A stretch of 38,604 nt of DNA from an uncultured Bacteroidota bacterium. Its GTDB lineage: Bacteria; Bacteroidota; Bacteroidia; JABEUT01. How positions within the stretch are numbered: position 1 is the stretch's first letter; every line of letters starts with the position of its first letter. Below are positions 20,064 to 26,059 of this stretch, piece after piece. The translations under genes were made by a program, and so were the position numbers. The notes under the pieces were generated by a model. The model was given only the letters and a program-made list of their open reading frames with translations. It was not told where the DNA came from and ran no database searches. The stretch is taken from positions 1-38,604 of the forward strand of contig CAIWVW010000115.1 of NCBI GenBank assembly GCA_903916255.1. Direction: 5' to 3'.

Positions 20064-21503
20064 TTATCGCCCAACTTCAACTTTCTTCATAAGGTTACTA
20101 CCGTCAGACATTTGTATTTTCAAAAAGTACACTCCTGCGGGCAGTTCTCCGGAAGATACTTCAATAGTTTGAACTTCTTCTATTTGCTGTTCAAATACTA
20201 ACCGCCCTGTTACATTATAAAGTATCAGTTTTTTTGCATTTGAAGAAGTAGGAATCTGGACGAAGAATGAATTGTTTGCCGGGTTAGGGTAAACAAGTAT
20301 TTTTTCAGTTTCACTAATGTAATTTATTCCTTCGTTCGCGCAGTTACTAAGATTATTTGAATAAGAATAATTAGTAATAAAGGTAGGCATCCCTTCATCT
20401 CCAGCTTTCCCACCAAGAAATACAGCAGTGTCATGAATTCTACAGGTTGCCCCATAGTTGTTTGGGGTGTCTATAGCTAATAAGTATCCTGAATTACTTA
20501 AACTAACCATATATATTTTTCCGTTTGGGCCTATTTGTAACCCCCTTAAAGTTGATAGGGTTGTTTCTTGGTACACTGTTGTCATTGATGTGTTAATAGT
20601 GGTTTGATTTCCGCTGCTTATATCGTATTCGACAATACCCATGCCGAAAGGGGAAATGGCTCCATAACTTGCGTATAGTTTTGAGTTGTCAGGCGAAAAT
20701 TCTACACCGTAAACGTCAGCATCACTAGGCGCTACAAGCGAAATAAAATTAGAAACGACACCGGTCCTCTTGTCAAAGTCATATAGCCCAAATTGATTGG
20801 GTTGAACAAAAGCCTGGCTGGCGGCAATTGCTAATTTTTTTCCGTTTGGTGAAACTTTTAACTGTCCTTGGGCACCCGTATCAATATATCCGATATGCGT
20901 TATTACGGTATCACTAATCCCTGTAGGTGTAAGCAGATAGGAATAGAATGCATCTGTATTTAGTTTGTGGGTTATTATCCAATAATCCACTCCGTTTGAA
21001 TCTCGCACTGCAGCAACCTTCTCATCTGTACTGTCAATAAGAAGAATATTTTTCTTACCGATAATAACATCACCTAAACCACTGTCAAGGCACATGTCGA
21101 CAATCGAGTAACGGAATCCATATTTTTCGTTGTCCTCCCAAAAATCATCCACTGTAAAAATGTAAAAAAATCTGCTGCTGCCGGGTAAAGGAACAATGAC
21201 CGATGATTGAGTTGAGGAAAAATTTCCTAACAAACTATCTCCGTTAGGCATCACATTCCCATTTTTATTCCAGAGTTTCTGCCCGTTTGAATAGAATAAA
21301 ATATTTCCAGAGCTGTCGGAAATTGCAGAGCTACCTTCATTATACGATCCGGTTGGAAAATATGTTGCTCCATTTGTCAATGCAGATGGAGTCGGGGTGT
21401 TAAAGTCTACTCCGGCATGATTGCCGAAATACCAAATATTCCCTTGTTTCTGCCCCAAACAAATCATTGGAAACAAAAGAGTGATTAAAAGTATTTTTTT
21501 CAT
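20064..21503 (-). CDS. T9SS-exported propeller-like surface protein
   Basis: The 479-residue product has a signal peptide (MKKILLITLLFPMICLGQ). The body begins QGNIWYFGNHAGVDFNT, a common opening of Bacteroidota surface proteins. It contains WD40/YVTN-like pieces (GQLKVSPNGKKLAIA, YGVEFSPDNSKLYASYG, GLQIGPNGKIYMV). A T9SS type A domain covers about residues 405-479 (VYPNPANNSFFVQI, LYNVTGRLVFEQQ, LPAGVYFLKI, KKVEVGR). It is predicted to be exposed on or released from the cell surface; ligand unknown. Its only recognisable promoter is the ECF-type element at 21530-21559. Confidence 0.88.
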   Translation of the reverse strand: MKKILLITLLFPMICLGQKQGNIWYFGNHAGVDFNTPTPSALTNGATYFPTGSYNEGSSAISDSSGNILFYSNGQKLWNKNGNVMPNGDSLLGNFSSTQSSVIVPLPGSSRFFYIFTVDDFWEDNEKYGFRYSIVDMCLDSGLGDVIIGKKNILLIDSTDEKVAAVRDSNGVDYWIITHKLNTDAFYSYLLTPTGISDTVITHIGYIDTGAQGQLKVSPNGKKLAIAASQAFVQPNQFGLYDFDKRTGVVSNFISLVAPSDADVYGVEFSPDNSKLYASYGAISPFGMGIVEYDISSGNQTTINTSMTTVYQETTLSTLRGLQIGPNGKIYMVSLSNSGYLLAIDTPNNYGATCRIHDTAVFLGGKAGDEGMPTFITNYSYSNNLSNCANEGINYISETEKILVYPNPANNSFFVQIPTSSNAKKLILYNVTGRLVFEQQIEEVQTIEVSSGELPAGVYFLKIQMSDGSNLMKKVEVGR

Positions 21504-22511: not shown

Positions 22512-23093
22512 TTATTCATCCTCCATCGCCTTTTCCACATGCTTATCGGGCATAAACCACATAATGGAGACAAGCAAAAACAATACCTCCGAAATATATG
22601 GGTTCACAAAGGCCAGCGGTATTGCGGAACTGTAAATTGCAATAGATATATAACCCTTGTTAGCCATACGTTTCATAGCATTTTGCATTTGCGTACTCCA
22701 GGGGTTATTTTTCTCAATAGCGCTTCTAAGTATATTCCAGAAAAAGCCCGGTATAAGCAGAAGTACAGCATAGGCTGCCACTGCCTGTGGTGCAAAATCA
22801 CATGAGGCTACCCAGCCGGTAATAAAGGGTATGAGCGAAAGCCAGAACAACAGGCCTAAATTGGCAACCATAATTTTACCGTTTACTTTTTTAGCAGTAT
22901 GCACCAAATGGTGGTGGTTGCTCCAATATACACCTACAAATAAAAAACTTTGGGTGTAACATAGAAAGGCGGGTAAAACTGAAAGCAAATCACTGATTGT
23001 TCCGCCATGCGGAGCTTTCAGGTCCAGTATCATTATGGTCATGATGATGGCAAACATGCCATCGCTAAAGGCTTCAAGACGGCTTTTGTTCAT
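22512..23093 (-). CDS. TMEM175-family potassium channel-like protein
   Basis: The 193-residue integral-membrane protein has the family signature RLEAFSDGMFAIIMTIMILDL in its first helix (the RxxxFSDGxFAI motif lining the pore in TMEM175) and the typical GVYWSNHHHLVH segment. About six hydrophobic helices can be traced. Bacterial members form tetrameric potassium-permeable channels in the inner membrane. The open frame extends 39 codons upstream, but those residues cross the terminator of the preceding gene and lack family character, so I start at MNKSRLEAF. Confidence 0.85.
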   Translation of the reverse strand: MNKSRLEAFSDGMFAIIMTIMILDLKAPHGGTISDLLSVLPAFLCYTQSFLFVGVYWSNHHHLVHTAKKVNGKIMVANLGLLFWLSLIPFITGWVASCDFAPQAVAAYAVLLLIPGFFWNILRSAIEKNNPWSTQMQNAMKRMANKGYISIAIYSSAIPLAFVNPYISEVLFLLVSIMWFMPDKHVEKAMEDE

Positions 23094-23100
23094 AAGGGGT

Positions 23101-23131
23101 AAAAAAATAGTCCTCCGTTTCGGGAGGACTA
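23101..23131 (-). terminator. Rho-independent terminator after the cupredoxin gene
   Basis: A perfect 9-bp stem (TAGTCCTCC, 23108-23116, with GGAGGACTA, 23123-23131) and a 6-base loop are followed on the minus strand by seven T. The hairpin lies between the cupredoxin stop and the TMEM175-like start, so the latter needs its own promoter or readthrough. Confidence 0.88.
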
Positions 23132-23166
23132 AAGTAATAACAAAATTTGATTTTAATAAATGAAGC

Positions 23167-23763
23167 CTATTGTACTTCCAGTTTGCCTTTTGTAGATAAT
23201 GTACCTGCATTTACCTGATAGAAATAGATGCCCTTTGTCCATTCTGAAACATCTATCATATTATCGACGGCATTTAATATTTTTCTGAAAACAACTCTGC
23301 CCTCAATGTCAGTTATGGTTAACATATTGGTTGGGGCACAGGTATTCAAATGAAAATTAACATGGTTGCTGGCCGGATTAGGAAATACGGATGCAAGGCT
23401 GGTGAAACTTTCTACATAAGGAACCGCTGTGGCCGTAACATTAATAGTACCTTCCATAGAAGTTGTATGGATGGCACACCAGTAATTATACGTACCGGGT
23501 GTTGTAATCAAATAGTCGAACTTAGTAGCGCTGCTTGTCATATTTGCATTCCATGAGGCCGCCCCCCCGGGAATGGTTAAGGATGTTGTTGTATGGGTTC
23601 CGGATACCCACTGCCATTCTACTGTGTCTCCTACTGTGGCTGAAAAACTGGAAGGGGAAAAACTGAAATTCTGGACAGTAACAATATGTTTTGTTGCATT
23701 CGCAAACGAGAAAACAGATAATCCTGCTAAAAGCAGAACGGTTTTTGTAATTGATTTTTTCAT
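23167..23763 (-). CDS. T9SS-exported cupredoxin (plastocyanin-like)
   Basis: The 198-residue product has a signal peptide (to about residue 23, SFANAT). A blue-copper domain (about 25-110) shows a complete ligand set: His57 in SGTHTTT, Cys96 and His99 in YWCAIH, and Met103 in TSMEG. It is therefore expected to bind one copper and pass electrons outside the cytoplasm. Residues ~127-198 are a T9SS type A domain (VFPNPASNHVNFHL, ITDIEGRVVFRKIL, WTKGIYFYQV, GKLEVQ), which would place this redox protein on the cell surface. Upstream is an ACCCAACT-N16-ATCTAA element; downstream a strong terminator makes it monocistronic. Confidence 0.9.
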   Translation of the reverse strand: MKKSITKTVLLLAGLSVFSFANATKHIVTVQNFSFSPSSFSATVGDTVEWQWVSGTHTTTSLTIPGGAASWNANMTSSATKFDYLITTPGTYNYWCAIHTTSMEGTINVTATAVPYVESFTSLASVFPNPASNHVNFHLNTCAPTNMLTITDIEGRVVFRKILNAVDNMIDVSEWTKGIYFYQVNAGTLSTKGKLEVQ

Positions 23764-23802: not shown

Positions 23803-23832
23803 TTAGATGCAACCATTTTAATAAAGTTGGGT
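23803..23832 (-). promoter_or_regulatory. ECF-type promoter element of the cupredoxin gene
   Basis: ACCCAACT (23832-23825), 16 bases, ATCTAA (23808-23803) on the minus strand, ending 40 bases before the ATG. It differs from the others at the eighth base of the first box. Its second box matches that of the sigma gene rather than the CGTAAT class. Confidence 0.5.
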
Positions 23833-23844
23833 ACGAAGTTAAAT

Positions 23845-25368
23845 TTATTTAAAACAATAGGTGACCCCAATATTCAACCCTGCTAAATAAGGATAAGTAA
23901 CTACCGGAGTGTTTTTATTAATGGTAGTTAGCGAACCTTGCAAAGCCGGTTCCGCATAAATGCCGACTTGTTTGCAAATGTTGTATGAGATACCTAATCC
24001 GAGGGTATAAGAATAATACATGCTTTGCAAACCCTCGATGGTATTTACGGTTGAAGTGCCCTGATAATTCCATGAATCTTTCCAATTCATTACAGTTTCT
24101 GTGCTGGTTGAAATATTTATTCCTATTCCGCCGGTTATAAACATGCTAATCTTGTCTGTTTTCACGGCAAAATATTTTAGCTTGACAGGAATGCTCAGGT
24201 AAGCTCTGGTGGATGTAGCCGACATTTTAAGGCTATCTCCAATTGAAACAGCGTATCCATAATAAGGGCAGTTAACTACTCCTGAACTGGAAACAATGGA
24301 ATACCCAATTTGTCCATTATCTTCCTGTTGTGCGTATATGTATGTAGGTCCAATCCGGAAGGAATAATATTGGTAAGACAATCCGACAGCTACAGAAAGG
24401 TGCTTGTTCAGTTCATATTCTACAGTTCCCCCGGCCGAATAAGCGGACTGCACTTTTTCGTTTGTTTTTATTTGGTTTTCATAATAGCTGCCAGTATTAC
24501 CGCTGCTTTTATAATTATATCCTGTTACCAAATCGGGCGAAAAATATGCCCACAGGCTAAACCTGGAAGAACCCTGTAAAGTATCTGCCATTACTACCTT
24601 TTTAGCAGAATCGGGTTGGATAATTGCTTGTGCAGGATTTGTTTTTGGTGGATTGGACACAATGCTTGCAGCCTCAGATTTTGTATCTATAGAAGATGTG
24701 TTTTGATTTGCCGGTTTTAATTCCGGAACAATTGGGTTATTATTTACAGGGTCTGCAGTAATAGTTTTAGTTTGGTGCAAATTGTCTGTAACTGTTTCTT
24801 TTTCAATTTTAGAATTGGCAGGTACAGGTGTATTTGTTATTTGCTCCAATTCAGAGGGTTTCGATTTCTTACGAACCTTTTTTAATGCTATTTGGGTAGG
24901 TGCAATTCCTGTAATTGACGGTTGTTGTTTGTTGGAAACCTTATTTTTAATGGCTGTTTGGGTATGATTGTTATGGGTTGATATGGGTTGCTTAATTGTT
25001 TTTTTGTTTTCGGTAGTTGCCAGGCCAGTACCATTTGCAATTACAGGCTTGTCGGTGTTTTTGTATGCTGTAACCGGAATTGCCGAATTGTTTATAATGT
25101 TATTTTTTGCTGCCACAATTTTCGAATCTGTTTTCTCATTGCTGCTTTGCATTTTAATGGTAAAAAACCCCAATATTAACAAGCCTGCGCCCAGCAAAAG
25201 AGCCAATGCCCTCCACCTTGCCGTGTTTCTGCTGCCGGCAATTTTCCCGTTCCTGATGATACCTTCCGCCGATTTGCGCCAAAACTCATCTGAAGGCTCA
25301 GTATTCAAAGGCTCTATGCCTTTCCGGAAAATTTCATCGATGTTATTCCCCGTTTGCTTTTCGCTCAT
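23845..25368 (-). CDS. Putative dual membrane-spanning anti-sigma factor
   Basis: Three parts are visible in the 507-residue product. Residues 1-52 form a charged, presumably cytoplasmic segment (IDEIFRKGIEPLNTEPSDEFWRKS). Residues ~53-71 are one transmembrane helix (RALALLLGAGLLILGFFTI). Residues ~72-265 are an Asn/Thr/Lys/Pro-rich, low-complexity linker long enough to cross the periplasm. Residues ~266-507 are an outer-membrane beta-barrel (SLWAYFSPDLVTGYNY, HLSVAVGLSYQYYSF, YLSIPVKLKYFAV, ending GLNIGVTYCFK). The gene overlaps the ECF sigma gene by 26 bases. A single chain linking cytoplasm, inner membrane and outer membrane fits the dual membrane-spanning anti-sigma (Dma) type known from Bacteroides. 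Sigma binding is inferred from linkage and layout. Confidence 0.75.
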   Translation of the reverse strand: MSEKQTGNNIDEIFRKGIEPLNTEPSDEFWRKSAEGIIRNGKIAGSRNTARWRALALLLGAGLLILGFFTIKMQSSNEKTDSKIVAAKNNIINNSAIPVTAYKNTDKPVIANGTGLATTENKKTIKQPISTHNNHTQTAIKNKVSNKQQPSITGIAPTQIALKKVRKKSKPSELEQITNTPVPANSKIEKETVTDNLHQTKTITADPVNNNPIVPELKPANQNTSSIDTKSEAASIVSNPPKTNPAQAIIQPDSAKKVVMADTLQGSSRFSLWAYFSPDLVTGYNYKSSGNTGSYYENQIKTNEKVQSAYSAGGTVEYELNKHLSVAVGLSYQYYSFRIGPTYIYAQQEDNGQIGYSIVSSSGVVNCPYYGYAVSIGDSLKMSATSTRAYLSIPVKLKYFAVKTDKISMFITGGIGINISTSTETVMNWKDSWNYQGTSTVNTIEGLQSMYYSYTLGLGISYNICKQVGIYAEPALQGSLTTINKNTPVVTYPYLAGLNIGVTYCFK

Positions 25369-25924
25369 TATATATTAATTTTTCTTCTATTAGTAAGTTT
25401 TTGTAAATCTTTTTCTTTAGCAAGTTCCTTGCGTCTGAAAGGTTCGATTTGGACGTGCCTTCTACGATACCAAGTTCTGCGGCAATATCTTTATGCCCCA
25501 TACCTTCAAATACAAAAAGGTTGAAAACCATTTTATACATAGGCGGAAGCTCCTGTATCATTTTAAGTAATTCCTTCGAATCGATAAGGTTTAATATGTC
25601 TTCATCGCTAACGAAACGGTCTTCCACGTTGTCGATATCAAGCACCGGGTATATTTTATTGGCTTTTCTAAGGTGCTCCAGCGATTTGTTTACGATAATT
25701 TTCCGTATCCACCCTTCAAAAGAGCCTTGCATCCGGAATTGAGCCATTTTTTCAAATACTATAATTAAGCCCTCCTGAAGCACATCTTCGGCCTCTTCCC
25801 GGCTGCGGGCATAACGCATGCATACCGTAAGCATTTTAGCCGCATACCGGGTATACAGCAGTTGCTGAAATGCCGGAATACCTTTTAAACAGCCTTTGAT
25901 TAGTTGTTCTTCTGAAATCTCCAA
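25343..25924 (-). CDS. ECF-type RNA polymerase sigma factor
   Basis: The 193-residue sigma-70 factor of the ECF group contains only regions 2 and 4. Region 2 is RYARSREEAEDVLQEGLIIVFEKMAQF...GWIRKIIVNKSLEHLRK. Region 4 is LPPMYKMVFNLFVFEGMGHKDIAAELGIVEGTSKSNLSDARNLLKKKI, with the helix-turn-helix that reads the -35 box. The start codon is TTG: EISEEQLIKGCLKG matches the usual family start, no in-frame ATG lies between the upstream stop and residue 31, and a promoter element ends 22 bases upstream. It overlaps the anti-sigma-like gene, so the two are coupled. The ACCCAACC-N16-ATCTAT element in front suggests self-activation. Confidence 0.92.
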   Translation of the reverse strand: MEISEEQLIKGCLKGIPAFQQLLYTRYAAKMLTVCMRYARSREEAEDVLQEGLIIVFEKMAQFRMQGSFEGWIRKIIVNKSLEHLRKANKIYPVLDIDNVEDRFVSDEDILNLIDSKELLKMIQELPPMYKMVFNLFVFEGMGHKDIAAELGIVEGTSKSNLSDARNLLKKKIYKNLLIEEKLIYNERKANGE

Positions 25925-25945: not shown

Positions 25946-25975
25946 ATAGATGAAATTAAGAATATAAGGTTGGGT
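25946..25975 (-). promoter_or_regulatory. ECF-type promoter element of the sigma gene
   Basis: ACCCAACC (25975-25968), 16 bases, ATCTAT (25951-25946) on the minus strand, ending 22 bases before the TTG start. Sharing this element with four T9SS genes points to autoregulation. Confidence 0.6.
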
Positions 25976-26059
25976 AGCTTTTACAATAACCTTATAGTTA
26001 TTCAAATATCGGATTTATTGCCGTGCTGCCCAAACAAGAATTTGTATGCCCGATTACGT

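Follow-up and report, generated by a model that had tools for sequence, protein, structure and literature searches.

The 38,604-nucleotide window analysed here, the whole stretch of contig CAIWVW010000115.1 from an uncultured Bacteroidota bacterium, carries an ECF sigma factor gene followed by a gene for a 507-residue partner, and the pair belongs to the known Dma/Reo class of sigma factors and dual membrane-spanning anti-sigma proteins. What our analysis adds is a candidate regulon. Taken as a whole, the locus is very probably explained by a pair of this class that controls its own operon and a neighbouring cupredoxin gene. From the parts, barrel fold, sigma linkage, co-inheritance, motif and targets found by computation, we infer how the sigma may be bound, signalled to and released. 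Residues 1-52 of the partner would keep the sigma factor bound at the inner membrane, with one helix passing through that membrane, a disordered linker crossing the periplasm and an eight-stranded barrel sitting in the outer membrane. The barrel, with its conserved surface loop, would report on outer-membrane or surface conditions. A change there would either be passed along the chain or lead to cleavage, so that the sigma is let go by tension, conformational change or proteolytic cutting, and, once free, the sigma would use CCCAAC-N16-CATCTA promoters to transcribe the cupredoxin gene along with its own operon. Sigmas of this type in relatives would act on a few exported proteins, many of them metal or redox proteins and many of them cargo of the type IX secretion system (T9SS).

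Features of the sigma/anti-sigma locus, in window coordinates
Feature	Position	Strand	Basis or remark
Promoter-like motif TACCCAAC-N16-CATCTA before sigma gene (putative autoregulation)	25947..25976	-	
TACCCAAC-N16-CATCTA, second copy, before cupredoxin gene	23804..23833	-	
ECF sigma factor, 193 aa	25343..25924	-	TTG start
Dma/Reo-type dual membrane-spanning anti-sigma-like protein, 507 aa	23845..25368	-	ORF, Pfam, hydropathy, AlphaFold
Residues 1-52, predicted cytoplasmic sigma-binding segment	25213..25368	-	Conserved DxxF...EPSxxFW motif
Residues 53-72, single inner-membrane helix	25153..25212	-	Hydropathy, AlphaFold helix 27-93, relatives
Residues 73-265, disordered periplasmic linker	24574..25152	-	pLDDT, low conservation
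Residues 266-507, 8-stranded outer-membrane beta-barrel	23848..24573	-	Pfam, AlphaFold, structural alignment
Residues 346-378, long loop 2 with Cys367	24235..24333	-	Conservation
Cupredoxin with T9SS type A C-terminal sorting domain, predicted target	23167..23763	-	Pfam

The initial annotation had given the two reading frames, their shared minus strand, their lengths of 193 and 507 residues and the 26-base overlap between them, all of which are exact. The sigma matches Pfam region 2 at 56.3 bits and region 4 at 49.4 bits (cut-offs 24 and 25.7), and its TTG start recurs in the sigma genes of the relatives L003, L004 and L020. No FecR domain was matched at the locus in Pfam, and the barrel sits in the same chain as the predicted sigma-binding segment; the pair is therefore not of the FecR/TonB-transducer type with a separate outer-membrane receptor. 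The cupredoxin gene is the next one after the partner gene (Por_Secre_tail 48.5 bits, Copper-bind 24.4 bits in Pfam). Directly after it lies a gene for a TMEM175-family potassium channel (22512-23210, minus strand; 101 bits in Pfam), which might share a transcript with the cupredoxin gene. A second protein with a T9SS sorting domain is encoded at 20064-21503 of the window, also on the minus strand, and the promoter motif is absent before its gene.

The proposed layout of the partner, a cytoplasmic segment, one helix, a linker of about 190 residues and a barrel, was borne out by hydropathy, Pfam and AlphaFold. The protein has one hydrophobic segment, at residues ~53-73 (mean hydropathy 2.15), and the helix lies at the same place in relatives. 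Ahead of it, F14, P25 and W30 of the N-terminal motif are invariant in an alignment of 15 sequences, and on this pattern the segment is predicted to bind the sigma; AlphaFold confidence there is 42-68, and residues 1-52, barely covered in the structural alignment, found no known-fold match in it. The AlphaFold model, built from the 15-sequence alignment, places a helix at residues 27-93 and disorder at 93-266 (pLDDT < 50). Residues 72-265 are rich in K/T/N/I/A/S/P and the linker is the least conserved part of the protein. Its estimated length in the relatives of alignment A1 stays within 154-215 residues while the sequence varies, which would fit a linker whose length counts for more than its sequence.

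Pfam recognises an outer-membrane barrel domain (PF13568) at residues 283-463, with 38 bits (cut-off 27). The C-terminal barrel that the annotation had put up for a structural check is indeed predicted: AlphaFold gives eight long strands between residues 270 and 505, mostly at pLDDT 80-96, and these align structurally to OprF, OmpW, OmpA and NspA with Z scores of 16-18.5, best to OprF (Z 18.5, rmsd 2.0 over 131 residues). Together the modelled parts suggest a partner that may lie in both membranes at once. A T9SS link through PorT/SprT was considered and rejected, the barrel's NCBIfam match being only 16.3 bits (cut-off 125). Within the barrel, loop 2 is as conserved as the strands, far above loops 1 and 3 and the linker. 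The loop is presumably surface-exposed, the membrane side being taken from the usual topology of such barrels. Its cysteine is found in 7 of the 15 sequences, and a redox, thiol or metal signal acting there is at best an attractive guess.

Conserved linkage to sigma genes, the other check that had been suggested, was found in relatives. In genomes of the same genus and the same class, all full-length relatives are encoded immediately behind an ECF sigma gene, and phylum-wide a sigma profile places an ECF gene beside nearly all fetched matches, those from another class included. A profile scan of genome contigs with alignment A2 yielded four MAG loci only. Distances among sigmas correlate with distances among partners (Mantel r 0.79, none of 5000 permutations as high), a correlation for which species history accounts in part, and the nearest partners are mostly paired with the nearest sigmas; the pair is thus inherited together.

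Four relatives (L075, L076, L078 and L081; 237-259 aa) keep the N-terminal motif, the helix and the upstream ECF sigma gene and have no barrel, so that the barrel looks like a module that a simpler anti-sigma protein has gained, or that has been lost again. Since regulation must work without a barrel in these relatives, they favour a reading in which the two proteins are indeed a sigma/anti-sigma pair and the barrel is a mere outer-membrane anchor, with the signal sensed in the periplasm or through proteolytic cleavage of the linker. We regard this as unlikely, though worth some weight, given that loop 2 is conserved to the level of the strands, unlike what an anchor alone would need. The sensing role of the barrel and its loop remains our preferred account.

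This layout is not new, having already been described for Dma1 and Dma2 (PMC13088901) and for Reo (PMC13114119). Dma proteins have been described as starting with a sigma-binding domain, followed by a helix, an intrinsically disordered tether and, at the C-terminus, a barrel, with their genes next to ECF21 sigma genes (PMC13088901). The pairs Dma1/Das1 and Dma2/Das2 of Bacteroides thetaiotaomicron resemble ours in sigma-binding N-terminus (predicted here), helix, tether, barrel and adjacent ECF gene, and differ in targets, which are NigD or polysaccharide loci as against the predicted cupredoxin or other T9SS cargo, Rieske and cytochrome-like proteins here; the promoter sequence is likewise not the same (PMC13088901). 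For Reo of P. vulgatus, a reach through all five compartments has been described, and transcription of nigD genes depends on its sigma, EcfO (PMC13114119). EcfO-Reo, from Bacteroides fragilis and Phocaeicola vulgatus, shares with our pair an anti-sigma proposed to reach from cytoplasm to surface, a surface-protein regulon and a proposed response to outer-membrane stress, while it differs in having NigD lipoproteins as targets and gut anaerobes as hosts (PMC13114119).

The suggested likeness to dual membrane-spanning anti-sigma factors of Bacteroides was supported by profile comparison, which shows homology to sigma-linked barrel proteins of that genus. Annotated sigma-barrel pairs in Bacteroides and Parabacteroides were reached through a distant relative (L018). 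Profile A1 matches proteins of B. finegoldii, P. distasonis and P. massiliensis, three of them annotated beside sigma genes. Next to one B. finegoldii pair (L160) lies a divergent NigD-like gene, as expected of the Dma1 locus, an identification drawn from that neighbour and not from sequence comparison with Dma1. In a profile-profile comparison the window family matches the Bacteroidales sigma-linked proteins with a probability of 99.3 (E 4.6e-20), in an alignment that covers the barrel only at ~19% identity, N-terminal similarity being weak. A profile built from the sigmas of the window family likewise finds the sigma partner in the B. finegoldii pair, at E 3e-59 (3-sequence set).

The promoter-like motif was first noticed by eye. 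When only the regions upstream of the two genes were compared, a 14/14 match arose in 2 of 300 shuffles, which is weak evidence, and this test was replaced by genome-wide counts; two short AT-rich regions can match by chance, so the case for the motif rests on its rarity and conservation. CCCAAC-N16-CATCT occurs three times in the 3.74-Mb genome, twice at this locus, and ACCCAAC-N16/17-CATCT exactly twice, both times here, so that in this genome the motif precedes only the sigma gene (by ~50 bases) and the cupredoxin gene (by ~70 bases). The latter copy falls just outside the interval 23845-25924 occupied by the pair. The motif also stands before the sigma genes of L003, L006, L008, L011 and L021-L023, and in eleven same-genus genomes ACCCAAC-N16/17-CATCT has 29 sites, where the reversed pattern has 2 and base composition predicts ~6. 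We infer from this distribution that the sigma reads TACCCAAC-N16-CATCTA. The genome holds 12 sigma-like matches, and other ECF sigmas could read similar promoters. Among the same-genus genomes, G001 (60% complete) has good motif targets and no pair was found in it, G008 has neither a detectable pair nor a motif site, and G002 has no detectable pair, one intergenic motif site and three inside genes. In G002 (L121, 7180-7536) a PqqD-like gene, itself followed by the cupredoxin homologue, has a near-motif, GTATCTA, in front of it.

Five of the 29 sites lie inside genes, 6 precede sigma genes of this type and 18 lie elsewhere, 16 of the latter with a credible gene behind them. A T9SS sorting domain was found in 8 of these 16 non-sigma targets (in one, cut by a contig end and below the cut-off). 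These eight comprise the cupredoxin, five choice-of-anchor V-type proteins, one of which scores below that model's cut-off, one SprB-repeat protein and one RCC1-repeat protein. Three further targets are Rieske lipoproteins without a T9SS domain, three are lipoproteins with cytochrome-like CH motifs and no family match above cut-off, and a Wzz-like protein and a small exported protein complete the set. Separate copies of the motif precede the sigma operon, the Rieske gene and the gene that follows the latter in G004, G005 and G009. T9SS domains occur in very roughly 5-10% of the genes of these genomes, a background we assumed from a rough estimate based on gene counts, so that 8 of 16 is an excess, with P between 3e-7 and 6e-5 if the targets are independent. 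Several are orthologous and hence not independent; counted by family (6/11), P lies between 6e-6 and 3e-4. The link to T9SS cargo promoters that the initial annotation had drawn therefore holds in part: the neighbouring cupredoxin and half of the genus targets support it, but Rieske and cytochrome-like lipoproteins without the domain are also typical, and "exported, often redox proteins" fits the targets better. In relatives, the motif sites suggest a candidate regulon made up of a small set of exported proteins.

The share of T9SS cargo among the genus targets also favours the view that the pair controls T9SS itself, in the manner of SigP, and not a limited group of exported proteins. In P. 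gingivalis, T9SS components are known to be under ECF control (PMC7712824), and the same has been suggested for F. psychrophilum (PMC9723704). The PorXY-SigP system of Porphyromonas gingivalis resembles our pair in tying an ECF sigma to this secretion system; it differs in two-component activation, SigP being activated through PorXY, in having T9SS components as its targets and in that no barrel anti-sigma is described for it (PMC7712824). With no T9SS machinery gene recognised among the genus motif targets, and with the motif in this genome limited to the sigma operon and the cupredoxin gene, we consider control of T9SS itself improbable and favour the small exported-protein regulon. For that regulon, the compact two-site promoter and its recurrence in relatives offer targets that can be tested, as well as a reporter.

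The same genome holds a second sigma/partner pair (L002/L127, G000:C149; 786-2835 and 5038-5511), whose partner is 32% identical to the 507-residue protein and whose genes again overlap by 26 bases. PF13568-type barrels are very common in Bacteroidota, and a small outer-membrane protein of the ordinary kind, with a long extension at its N-terminus, might by chance lie behind a sigma gene, an idea we find scarcely credible against this identical overlap in a paralogous pair, the conserved motif before the helix and a sigma linkage kept across the phylum, another class included. The second pair's own motif, CAACC-N16-CGTCTA, has exactly two sites in the genome, one before the second sigma gene and one before a Rieske lipoprotein gene ~2 kb downstream on the same contig. 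The separate motifs suggest that the two systems are kept apart by promoter sequence, and that each regulates its own genes together with an exported redox protein encoded close by.

Outside the genus, Rieske genes adjoin the pair in G025 and G244, and in members of another class PSCyt1 cytochrome lipoproteins do so, with a cupredoxin near one of them; these are plain observations of neighbouring genes. Redox neighbours were not found in the loci of family f49 or in L013 and L014. No paper that links Rieske proteins with ECF sigma factors in Bacteroidetes turned up in a literature search. We tentatively propose, with some doubt, that dual membrane-spanning anti-sigma systems form a phylum-wide line governing exported electron carriers and metal-binding surface proteins, several of them exported by T9SS, with redox, metal or oxygen state sensed at the conserved surface loop and paralogues separated by promoter sequence. 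If the link to exported redox proteins is true, it offers a clue to what these sensors detect and joins outer-membrane sensing to T9SS cargo in Bacteroidota outside the gut. In family f49 (L054-L059), one type of small lipoprotein gene, with no Pfam family beyond a weak lipoprotein signal, repeatedly adjoins the sigma gene.
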